Source: an uncultured Clostridia bacterium | GTDB taxonomy: Bacteria; Bacillota; Clostridia; Oscillospirales; Ruminococcaceae | DNA length: 64,000 bases | Direction: 5' to 3' | Assembly: GCA_947631575.1 (NCBI GenBank) | Contig: CANRLW010000002.1 | Coordinates: forward strand, 1 to 64,000 | Position numbers and translations under genes: made by a program | Shown here: positions 289-21,551 of the stretch, piece after piece | Layout: the number at the start of each line of letters is the position of its first letter | Position numbering within the stretch: the stretch's first letter is position 1 | Notes under the pieces: generated by a model | The model's database searches: none | What the model was told of the DNA's origin: nothing | What the model saw: only the letters and a program-made list of their open reading frames with translations

Positions 289-1974
289 TCAGCGTTTCTT
301 TCTGGAAATAACAACTGCCGCACCTGCGAGGGCAATAACGCCGATAGTAAGTGAAAGTCCTGCTACGCCGGTGTCGGGGCTTGTAGTGCTGCCGCTTGAA
401 TTGCTGTCGGTAGATGTTTCGCTGTCAGAGCCGCTGTTGTCGGTAGTGCTGTCCGTGGTGCTATCTGTAGTACTGTCGGTAGTGCTGTCCGTGGTACTGT
501 CAGCGGGCTCTTCACCTTGCTTTTCGGTAGTAAGTACATACTCGCTGAAGTGGTCGGTCTTAAAGACCGCATAGCCGTCCTCAACAGTTGCGTTCATGTC
601 GGTATATGTGCCGTCGTCTTCTACGCGATAAACATAAACCGTCTTGTCCTTCATAGTTTCGGGAACGGGGAGCTTTACTGTTACTTCTCCGTCGGGCTGA
701 ATTTCCTTTTCGTTTTCGGTAATGGTAATTTCGTAAGTAGACTTTGTGCTGTCGGTTTTTTCGGCGATCGGCTTTACATTGAGCTTTACATCTTCGGGAA
801 GAACGCCGGCATCCGCGTCAAGAACTACATTTTCAGACGTAAGGGTCATGGCAAAATGTATTACAGCATTGCCAAACACATATTCCTTTGCGGTCTTGTT
901 GTCAAATCTTTCTTGCGGTCCACTTCCCATAAGATAGTCGTACCATGCACCTTCTTTTTCATCACTAGGGTGGAAACCTACAGATATGTTGTTCCAATCT
1001 TCTATACTACCGTTATAATAAACATCTTTCAGATTAGTACAGTTATAAAAAGTACTGTCTCCGATAAAGGAAATATTTTTCGACAGCGTTATGCTTGTAA
1101 GGCTTGTGCAATCCCAAAAAACATCTTGAATACTACCGCACGGAATAACTATGCTTGTAAGACTTGTGCACCCAATAAAAGTATCCTTTAATGGCCAGTT
1201 AATACTATCTGGAATATTTACTTCTTTAAGATTAGTACAACCGGAAAAAACTCCTGTTCCTAATTTTGTAACACTCTCGGGAATATTTATGCCAGTGATA
1301 CTTGTACAACCACTAAAGCCTCTACCACAAATCTCTGTTACGCCATCGGGAATAGTAATATTTCCCGAACACGCCGTTCCGTCAAACAGCATATCATTTA
1401 TAATAACAAGCGGATTTTCTTTCTTTTTATTTTCAAGCCACGGAGTTCCCGCAAAAACGTCACTTCCAATATATGTTACGCTTTTGGGGATATTCAAGCT
1501 TGTAAGGTTTGTACAATCTTTAAAAGCATGATCGTCTATCCCCGTCAAGCTTTCGGGAAGTGTAACACTTGTAAGGCTTGTACAACCACTGAAAGCAGAA
1601 TAACCGATAGATACTACGCTTTCAGGGATTTCCACACTTGTAAGGCTTGTACAACCGCGGAAAGTATTTTCCCAAATATATTTTACGCCTTCAGGTATAA
1701 TTACGCTTTTAAGATTTGTACAATCACGGAAAACAGAAATATTGATATATTCTACGCCTTCGGGAATAACTATCTCCGTTGCTGTTTCTCCCTGCTCCGT
1801 CAGTCCTCTTACCTCTGTTCCTCTTATAACAAGGTTTCCGCTCGGGTCTACAATGTTTCCGTTTTCGTCTGTTTCTACCGTCTGCGAGCTTTCAGCCATT
1901 GCCGCCGGCATAACGGCGGGGCTTGCCATAAGTGCGCCTGCGAGTAAAATTGCGCTTAGCTTTCTTAACTTCAT
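289..1974 (-). CDS. BspA-like leucine-rich-repeat cell-surface protein with C-terminal sorting-like signal
   Basis: Signal peptide; repeated 'F.GCTSLTSV.IPESV..IG' LRR_5 units; DSTT repeat linker; C-terminus SPDTG + hydrophobic span + RKKR. Confidence 0.88.
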   Translation of the reverse strand: MKLRKLSAILLAGALMASPAVMPAAMAESSQTVETDENGNIVDPSGNLVIRGTEVRGLTEQGETATEIVIPEGVEYINISVFRDCTNLKSVIIPEGVKYIWENTFRGCTSLTSVEIPESVVSIGYSAFSGCTSLTSVTLPESLTGIDDHAFKDCTNLTSLNIPKSVTYIGSDVFAGTPWLENKKKENPLVIINDMLFDGTACSGNITIPDGVTEICGRGFSGCTSITGINIPESVTKLGTGVFSGCTNLKEVNIPDSINWPLKDTFIGCTSLTSIVIPCGSIQDVFWDCTSLTSITLSKNISFIGDSTFYNCTNLKDVYYNGSIEDWNNISVGFHPSDEKEGAWYDYLMGSGPQERFDNKTAKEYVFGNAVIHFAMTLTSENVVLDADAGVLPEDVKLNVKPIAEKTDSTKSTYEITITENEKEIQPDGEVTVKLPVPETMKDKTVYVYRVEDDGTYTDMNATVEDGYAVFKTDHFSEYVLTTEKQGEEPADSTTDSTTDSTTDSTTDSTTDNSGSDSETSTDSNSSGSTTSPDTGVAGLSLTIGVIALAGAAVVISRKKR

Positions 1975-2029
1975 TTTAAATCCTCCTTATGATTGCGGTA
2001 TAACGTTATTTTCGCCGCGCAATTCCCCG

Positions 2030-2064
2030 CAAAATAAAAAAGTGCGCAGCTCAAAGCTACGCAC
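2030..2064 (-). terminator. Intrinsic terminator in the leader of the LRR protein gene
   Basis: Minus strand GTGCGTAGCT-TTG-AGCTGCGCAC then TTTTTTATTTT; between promoter and RBS of the 289-1974 gene. Confidence 0.85.
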
Positions 2065-2194
2065 GAAAAATGCATAGCTCACTTGCTGCTACACAACCGT
2101 GTTCCCGTCTATAAAGGATGCACGAATAGAGCCTGCACTTTTACCTAGAGGTATAGTGCAACCTTTACAGACAATTATTCGGTTGTGTAGCAAG
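2065..2194 (-). ncRNA. Structured 5' leader RNA, candidate riboswitch/attenuator of unknown class
   Basis: 13-bp closing stem (2087-2099 with 2180-2192), 11-bp inner stem (2107-2117 with 2162-2172), further hairpin (2134-2139 with 2155-2160) and an antiterminator-like stem (2055-2063 with 2071-2079) competing with the terminator. Confidence 0.7.
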
Positions 2195-2197
2195 TTT

Positions 2198-2226
2198 ATT
2201 ATATCACGACTTACAGCTTTTGTCAA
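2198..2226 (-). promoter_or_regulatory. Sigma-A-type promoter for the leader RNA/LRR gene
   Basis: Minus strand TTGACA (2226-2221), 17-bp spacer, TATAAT (2203-2198). Confidence 0.85.
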
Positions 2227-2320: not shown

Positions 2321-3247
2321 TTATTTATACAGTTTATCGTAATTTACAAGCTCGTTTAAAAGCTCGGGGACTTTTGTCGGCGCCTCTTCGTCCGTAAACT
2401 GACAAGTTCCAACCGCCATATGTCCGCCGCCGCCGTATTTGAGCATAAGACGTCCTACGTTTACATGAGAAGTTCTCGTCAATATCGAATATCCCACCGC
2501 GCACGAGCAGCCCTTTCCGCCCTTTCCGTCTACTATCCAGCAGCTTATGTTCTGGTCGGGATAGAGCGAATAGATGAGAAAACGGTTTCCCGTGTATATG
2601 GGGTCTACTCCGCGAAGATCGCTTATGATAACGTCGCCTTCTACTCTCGTATGCGCGTATACCATTTCTTTAAAAAGCTCCGTCTGCTCGTTGTAGAGCT
2701 TTATTCTCTCCTGAATATCGGGCATTGCGAGAATTTCCTCGGTCGTCATATACGAGCAGCATTTCAGGAGCTTTTCCATAAGCTGATAGTTGCTTATCGT
2801 AAAGTTTCTGAAACGTCCCAGACCTGTTCTCGGATCCATAAGAAAGCCTACAAGTATCCAGCCATGCGGGTCTAATATCTCATCTCTCGTAAGGTTTCCG
2901 CTGTCTACTTTATCTACGGCATCCATAAGGTCGTCGAAATTAGGAAAGCGCTCCTTGCCGCCGTAATATTCGTAAATAATACGCGCACAGCTCGGAGTTA
3001 TACGGCTCTCGCCTTTGTATTTGCCCTTATAACGGATACGCTCTTCTTCGCTCGAATGGTGGTCGAACCAAAGTCCGCAGCCCTCTACAAAAGGAACATT
3101 TGCAAGACAGTCGTTTTCGGTAACGGGAACAAGTCCGTCCTGAATATCCTTTGGGTGAGCAAAAGTCCAGCTATCAACAACTCCCGCGCTCAACAACAGC
3201 GCGCCGCAGGCAAGTCCGTCGAAATCAGAACGAGTTATCAGTCTCAT
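2321..3247 (-). CDS. DHH-family phosphoesterase-like protein (exopolyphosphatase/oligoribonuclease-related)
   Basis: N-terminal MRLITRSDFDGLACGALL; WFDHHSSEEE; C-terminal GGGGHMAVGTC typical of DHH/DHHA1 proteins. Confidence 0.8.
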   Translation of the reverse strand: MRLITRSDFDGLACGALLLSAGVVDSWTFAHPKDIQDGLVPVTENDCLANVPFVEGCGLWFDHHSSEEERIRYKGKYKGESRITPSCARIIYEYYGGKERFPNFDDLMDAVDKVDSGNLTRDEILDPHGWILVGFLMDPRTGLGRFRNFTISNYQLMEKLLKCCSYMTTEEILAMPDIQERIKLYNEQTELFKEMVYAHTRVEGDVIISDLRGVDPIYTGNRFLIYSLYPDQNISCWIVDGKGGKGCSCAVGYSILTRTSHVNVGRLMLKYGGGGHMAVGTCQFTDEEAPTKVPELLNELVNYDKLYK

Positions 3248-21395: not shown

Positions 21396-21472
21396 GGCGG
21401 CATAGCTCAGTTGGCTAGAGCACTTGGTTCATACCCAGGGTGTCACCGGTTCAAATCCAGTTGCCGCTACCA
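21396..21472 (+). tRNA. tRNA with CAT anticodon (tRNA-Met; tRNA-Ile2 not excluded)
   Basis: Cloverleaf: GGCGGCA/TGCCGCT acceptor, anticodon loop TTCATAC, T-loop TTCAAAT, encoded CCA. Confidence 0.88.
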
Positions 21473-21476
21473 TTTC

Positions 21477-21551
21477 GGCCCGTTGGTCAAGAGGTTAAGA
21501 CATCGCCCTTTCACGGCGGAATCATGGGTTCAATTCCCGTACGGGTCACCA
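21477..21551 (+). tRNA. tRNA-Glu (TTC)
   Basis: GGCCCGT/ACGGGTC acceptor, anticodon loop CTTTCAC, T-loop TTCAATT, encoded CCA. Confidence 0.92.

Follow-up and report, generated by a model that had tools for sequence, protein, structure and literature searches.

In the ZTP (pfl) and fluoride (crcB) riboswitches, strand displacement decides between formation of the terminator and read-through (PMC10085676; PMC11077080). Cotranscriptional strand exchange between an aptamer helix and the expression platform has also been described for the purine riboswitch of the B. subtilis yxjA gene (PMC9756952). Moreover, c-di-GMP-I riboswitches occur in many copies per genome before genes for surface and adhesion proteins. 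For instance, a c-di-GMP-I riboswitch precedes the gene of a collagen-binding surface protein in Bacillus thuringiensis (PMC7423583). The antitermination leaders of LoaP-type systems are clostridial RNAs with a conserved hairpin upstream of terminators. Finally, Fremin and Bhatt have computed 3161 structured-RNA candidates from gut metagenomes (PMC8040213).

The leader described here is located on the minus strand of a 64,000-nt stretch of DNA from an uncultured Clostridia bacterium of the Ruminococcaceae (GCA_947631575.1, contig CANRLW010000002.1, positions 1 to 64,000), which as a whole is called the window. Like the ZTP and fluoride riboswitches, it is a 5' leader with a pseudoknot-like pairing and, as proposed below, strand displacement. 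However, it has no sequence or structure match in Rfam, and, its tail being also the antiterminator strand, the long-range pairing would favour termination. As in yxjA and other strand-exchange attenuators, one strand would be exchanged between an aptamer helix and the platform, whereas the architecture is different and no purine aptamer is matched. Unlike the c-di-GMP-I riboswitches, the leader has no Rfam match and its relatives are present in genomes without detectable GGDEF domains. In contrast to LoaP systems, an extra NusG paralogue is lacking in nearly all family-bearing genomes examined. A fragment of the family may possibly be among the candidates of Fremin and Bhatt; nothing recognisable of it was found in the main text of that study, the supplementary tables being outside the scope of our search (PMC8040213). 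We conclude that the leader represents a real and widespread RNA family of the class Clostridia that is unlisted in Rfam, and that it is a candidate attenuator or orphan riboswitch whose sensing function is unproven.

Between positions 2226 and 2031, the promoter is followed by a leader with the helices P1, P2 and P3, an antiterminator and an intrinsic terminator (Table 1). The end of the element lies 56 nt before the ATG of a gene encoding a BspA-type LRR protein, and its position ahead of a gene is shown by sequence and comparison. The promoter hexamers (TTGACA, 2226-2221; TATAAT, 2203-2198; 17 nt apart) match the consensus at 12 of 12 positions, a TGn precedes the -10 hexamer, and transcription is predicted from the sequence to start about 7 nt past it, at the base of P1. 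The LRR protein carries a C-terminal sortase-type signal that was read by eye and consists of SPDTG, a hydrophobic stretch and RKKR. A terminator at 2307-2278 belongs to the preceding gene (2321-3247), and therefore the LRR gene forms a separate transcription unit. Elsewhere in the window, two adjacent and ordinary tRNA genes are located at 21396-21548 on the plus strand.

Table 1. Elements of the leader locus, with positions counted from the first base of the window
Feature	Position	Strand	Basis or remark
Sigma-70-type promoter, TTGACA-17-TATAAT, extended -10 (TGa)	2198..2226	-	sequence and relatives
Whole leader RNA, attenuator / orphan riboswitch candidate	2031..2192	-	cmsearch
P1, 5' strand	2181..2192	-	predicted transcription start (about 2191) at its base
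J1/2 internal loop, conserved (A)AUA	2175..2180	-	GAAUAA in the window
P2, 5' strand	2156..2174	-	
P3, 5' strand	2150..2155	-	
P3, 3' strand, GGUAAAAGUGC	2135..2145	-	alternative partner of the tail
J3/2 linker	2124..2134	-	with GCUC (2132-2129), putative toehold of the tail
P2, 3' strand	2105..2123	-	
P1, 3' strand	2087..2098	-	
Tail (switch strand), GAGCUAUGCAUUUUU	2066..2080	-	partner of P3-3'/J3-2 or of the terminator 5' strand
Terminator 5' strand, also antiterminator 3' strand	2055..2064	-	
Terminator 3' strand	2042..2051	-	
U-tract of the intrinsic terminator	2031..2041	-	
Shine-Dalgarno AAGGAGG	1982..1988	-	
Regulated gene, exported BspA-type LRR_5 protein	289..1974	-	ATG at 1974

The RNA 2192-2031 folds more stably than its dinucleotide shuffles (z = -6.3; 0 of 200 shuffles as good). 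An earlier, sequence-only reading of the locus had proposed the perfect promoter with a start at about 2191 at the base of a stem, as well as an inner stem with a nested hairpin, and these claims held, the latter as P2 and P3. The 13-bp outer stem that it described held in part, the core of P1 conserved in the family having 12 bp. Its pairings AGCTATGCA/TGCGTAGCT and GTGCGTAGCT/AGCTGCGCAC, which share TGCGTAGCT and are followed by TTTTTT, were confirmed exactly, and the mutual exclusivity of terminator and antiterminator that it had deduced is supported, as both pairings covary. By contrast, the idea that GTGCAT (2123-2118) serves as an alternative pairing strand failed, this being the ordinary 3' strand of P2, and the switch strand at 2080-2066 had been overlooked.

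The existence of the family is shown by sequence and comparative evidence. BLASTN uncovered six further whole or partial copies in the same genome and a covariance model brought the total to nine; the first seven copies examined all have a consensus promoter and a downstream gene for an exported LRR protein. Two models were used, R1 being derived from seven own-genome copies and R2 from 93 sequences. On the window, cmsearch with R2 matched 2197-2030 with 120 bits (E 1e-22), and R1 also matched. With R1, the leader was found in 27 of 43 sampled genomes of the genus and in 29 of 249 genomes of the taxonomic family (22 of 126 genera), and with R2 in 102 of 295 genomes of the order (61 of 148 genera) and 88 of 341 genomes of the class (56 of 203 genera). 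In a phylum-wide draw of 300 genomes there was no match outside the class, the own genome being the only match. A fuller search of single genomes revealed up to 30 copies (genome G827). All these prevalences and copy numbers have to be read as "at least" because the draws were sampled, the filters in the large draws were strict and many genomes are drafts. Moreover, an exact 19-mer from the junction of the P1 3' strand and the tail occurs in more than 119 stretches of a species-level genome collection, whose titles name gut, rumen and faecal Clostridia (Oscillospiraceae, Ruminococcus, Ruminiclostridium, Monoglobus) or unspecified Clostridia and Bacillota MAGs.

Rfam 15 (4227 models) returned only tRNA and 5S rRNA at the gathering threshold for the window and 20 relative loci, and under relaxed settings there was nothing credible over the element at E<=10 or over eight relatives at E<=1. 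The ncRNA surveys PMC11109978 and PMC7266159 contain nothing recognisable of the family. The exact sequence is also absent from the open-access literature that was searched (5.39 million papers); bioRxiv preprints and most subscription papers were outside the scope, so a description that we have not seen is possible. Thus, the suggestion of the sequence-only reading that the element is unclassified held, and so did its check on conservation of the stems, which covary massively among the relatives. The proposed control of an LRR surface protein fits the locus, but the scope had been underestimated, as the family is class-wide, multi-copy and extends beyond LRR genes.

Sequence and comparison show all the helices. 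When RNAalifold was applied to an initial MAFFT alignment, P2 was placed wrongly because the arm lengths differ, and a covariance model with a hand-set structure resolved the placement. In the alignment used for counting pairs (A4, 111 distinct sequences), 94.8% of the cells of P1, P2, P3 and the terminator are paired, and two-sided changes are present at 36 of 38 pairs. The covariation of these helices reaches 0.534 as compared to 0.194 in shuffled alignments and at most 0.110 with slid partners. The 12 bp of P1 are paired in 99.3% of cells, and 11 of them show two-sided changes; such changes were also found at 10 of 10 modelled pairs of P2, 5 of 6 pairs of P3 (92% paired) and 10 of 10 pairs of the terminator (97% paired). 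Apart from two positions, the sequence of P1 is itself kept (UGC-ACACAA, 86-99% per position). Unpaired conserved positions are few, fewer than in most metabolite aptamers, and mainly belong to the AAUA of J1/2, in which A, U and A are each present at 95-97% (111 sequences). The linker between P1 and the tail measures 6 nt in 99 of 111 sequences and J3/2 measures 15 nt in 66 of 111, while P2 has about 17 bp.

The tail is the proposed switch strand. Its consensus, GGAGC-N3-UGCRUUUUU (also given as GGAGC-N3-UGCAUUUUU), is complementary to that of the P3 3' strand and J3/2, GUAAAAAYGC-AU-GCUCU, and the tail in effect mimics the 5' strand of P3. In the window, the tail 2080-2066 (GAGCTATGCATTTTT) is complementary to 2142-2129 (AAAAGTGC-AG-GCTC). 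This long-range pairing is formed in 95.5% of the cells of A4, with 98.8% for the P3-3' half and 89-91% for the J3/2 half. It shows 63 two-sided cells against 22 in shuffled alignments (0 of 500 shuffles) and a covariation of 0.255 as compared to at most 0.124 with slid partners; examples are UA, UG and CG at columns 196-306 and GC and AU at columns 197-305. The antiterminator, in which the tail pairs with the terminator 5' strand, is paired in about 92% of cells (A4). Shuffling leaves the relatedness of the sequences in, and for that reason the slid, negative-control and low-identity tests matter. A matched-versus-permuted test, which leans only lightly on the alignment, compared the duplex energies of true and permuted partners in 86 sequences and gave z = -10.5 for the tail with P3-3'/J3-2 (-8.8 for the P3-3' half alone, -5.1 for the J3/2 half alone) and z = -5.0 for the tail with the terminator 5' strand. 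P3 itself, the positive control, scored -12.6, and three negative controls were null (-0.4, -0.7 and +2.1). In a set of at most 65% identity (n = 24), the values were -7.6 for the long-range pairing, -5.8 for the antiterminator and -7.0 for P3, with controls at -1.0, -1.2 and +0.7; one row with an empty segment offsets the means by a constant under the two most permissive identity limits, but the set quoted here is clean.

Neither alternative pairing was part of R1 or R2, and therefore the alignments were not fitted to favour them. Both pairings are thus shown by sequence and comparative evidence, and because both covary, selection has kept one strand pairing in two exclusive ways, of which one releases and the other blocks the terminator. 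For an attenuating leader, an antiterminator that is conserved and exclusive with the terminator is required, and comparative evidence shows that this criterion is met. Energetically, the window behaves as expected of a switch: the tail-blocked fold, which contains the terminator, and the unconstrained fold are at most 2 kcal/mol apart, and the duplex of tail and P3 3' strand amounts to -16.4 kcal/mol.

The coupling of the promoter to the structure is likewise shown by sequence and comparison. Of 155 unique relatives, 153 have a -10-like hexamer no more than 16 nt from the start of the model, and in 117 of 155 it has exactly one spacing, ending five bases upstream of the UGC that is conserved in P1, which random placement yields in 27%. 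A -35-like hexamer at 16-18 nt was detected in 111 of 155 relatives (control, 4%). As the promoter spacing is locked to P1, the transcript is inferred to begin practically with the opening base pair of P1. A promoter and a start upstream of the structure, the second hallmark of an attenuating leader, can thus be inferred from the sequence, the start being unmapped. The third, an intrinsic terminator ahead of the start codon, is shown by sequence and comparison; a run of at least five U follows the terminator in 154 of 155 relatives.

Where an ORF was found, the next one with a ribosome-binding site begins a median of 17 nt after the end of the model. A hydrophobic N-terminus was assigned to 80 of 124 downstream products by a heuristic without a background rate, and Pfam identified LRR_5 in 26 of 115. 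The remaining Pfam matches are scattered (double zinc ribbon, SHOCT, SLH, AMP-binding, CAP) and many products have no match. The downstream genes point to no single pathway, and no ligand can be named from so diverse a regulon. Among them, an uncharacterised protein of about 77 amino acids (MNIKxELLKxYISDF...) follows the leader in L231, L232, L223 and L234 and may be a core member of the regulon. Moreover, some copies stand before small AbrB/MazE-like proteins that end in a C-terminal zinc ribbon (L259:1246-1485, minus strand; L251:1696-1935; L147:1781-2017); these may be regulators that the leader controls as well.

Some genes are preceded by tandem copies, for example three in L263 and two each in L209, L146 and L242. 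Tandem riboswitches share one transcript start, whereas each leader unit here has its own promoter. Two or three such promoter-plus-attenuator units stand before one gene at L263:1501-2071, L209:1501-1992, L146:4370-4861, L242:1501-1892 and L241:1231-1682. Divergent subtypes were observed at L263:1700-2071, L255:1041-1204, L098:1764-1945 and L071:1501-1713; in L263 the tail reads GAGGGAAUACACUUUUU and both partners are altered accordingly, as if this were a separate subfamily. A weak and apparently decayed copy with a promoter and with remnants of tail and terminator (L019:1290-1442; G000:C29:7995-8147) is located just upstream of an intact one.

Taken together, the leader is likely to be a cis-acting transcription attenuator that operates by strand exchange. 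In this model, transcription would start at the base of P1, and the RNA would begin within its own P1 stem. P1, P2 and P3 would form first, and the emerging tail would then face two partners. In the ON state, the tail would pair with the 5' strand of the terminator as it emerges, and the resulting antiterminator would allow the gene to be read. In the OFF state, the tail would use the GCUC of J3/2 as a toehold and displace the 5' strand of P3, which would leave the terminator free to stop transcription. The choice would most likely be set by a signal acting on the P1-P2-P3 domain, and the analogy with riboswitches that use pseudoknots or strand exchange makes a small molecule or ion the likeliest candidate. 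Conditional termination in cells, the state favoured by the signal and the nature of the signal are inferred in the absence of expression, termination or binding data, and the ligand- or factor-controlled termination suggested by the sequence-only reading is still an inference.

The model has to accommodate a problem of geometry. The tail is attached by its 6-nt linker to the base of P1, and J3/2 is located at the far end of P2 (12 plus about 17 bp away). Therefore, the OFF pairing would need either a sharp bend at J1/2 that lays P2 back along P1 or a partial opening of P2. Because of this bend, the conserved AAUA may be a hinge, or possibly a sensor or ligand site, which is a hypothesis without support from binding data. 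Riboswitches are characterised in part by a conserved aptamer-like domain that is joined to an expression platform, and the leader has this arrangement with a modest content of conserved loop positions; ligand binding itself is inferred. A bolder reading, for and against which we see equally good odds, is that the family is a new orphan riboswitch class that is restricted to Clostridia and, counted per genome, belongs to the most abundant; it would respond to an unidentified and widely relevant signal, control exported LRR proteins, lipoproteins and small accessory proteins of gut bacteria, and trade its tail between aptamer and terminator.

The main rival, which remains possible, is that a protein (an antiterminator or RNA-binding attenuator) or a trans-acting RNA sets the switch at P1/J1-2 or J3/2. 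In favour of a protein, P1 is conserved also in sequence, which is unusual for a plain stem and hints at sequence-specific recognition, and conserved unpaired bases are few. However, compensatory swaps have been accepted in 11 of the 12 pairs of P1, and no candidate protein was found, only NusG having been examined. A single NusG-domain protein is present in 24 of 25 family-bearing genomes and two in the remaining one, and thus a LoaP-like factor is unlikely.

It is unlikely that the leader lacks a dedicated ligand and that temperature, Mg2+, transcription speed or stochastic folding causes fixed or noisy read-through into accessory surface genes. The diversity of the accessory genes downstream, the near-isoenergetic folds in the window and the tandem copies with a promoter each would fit this view. 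However, a precise tertiary structure is suggested by the conserved AAUA loop, by the linker of constant length (6 nt in 99/111) and by the mostly fixed J3/2 (15 nt in 66/111). Leader-peptide attenuation was rejected, as the arm lengths of P2 span all residues modulo 3 and no conserved AUG or stop was seen by eye; no dedicated test was made.

Very little speaks for a c-di-GMP riboswitch of new architecture that controls adhesins. The surface and LRR genes, the many copies per genome and the 8 GGDEF domains of the own genome are compatible with it, but none of the c-di-GMP families of Rfam is matched, and GGDEF was undetected (E<=1e-5) in 7 of 25 family-bearing genomes, including G827 with its 30 copies. 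These seven genomes are drafts that are 92-97% complete.

A repeat or mobile element (a MITE-like inverted repeat) or ordinary intergenic terminators are all but excluded, since despite the multiple copies, inverted-repeat ends of P1 and tandem duplications, the P2 sequences of different copies are unrelated yet paired, the order of promoter, RNA and gene is fixed, and covariation links the tail to both P3-3' and the terminator. A plasmid collection contained no match to the leader family and the exact 19-mer was absent from viral contigs; a degenerate pattern occurred in 35 viral contigs, probably by chance. Human faeces also yielded two records entitled "Bacteriophage sp." that lack annotation and contain the leader, MT835845.1:2072-2237 (L309:2001-2166) and MT837627.1:2227-2345. 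The former is flagged UNVERIFIED, and these phage records may be mis-binned bacterial contigs.

A strand-exchanging attenuator thus remains the preferred reading, and as both folds are defined base by base, its mechanism is directly testable. The family is a regulatory RNA that is present in about a quarter to a third of the sampled Clostridia genomes, in up to 30 copies, and absent from the standard RNA catalogue. It provides a route to a co-regulated set of surface proteins in gut bacteria that have hardly been studied. If the trigger is a small molecule, the leader would point to a so far undescribed signal that feeds into colonisation of the gut or remodelling of the cell surface.
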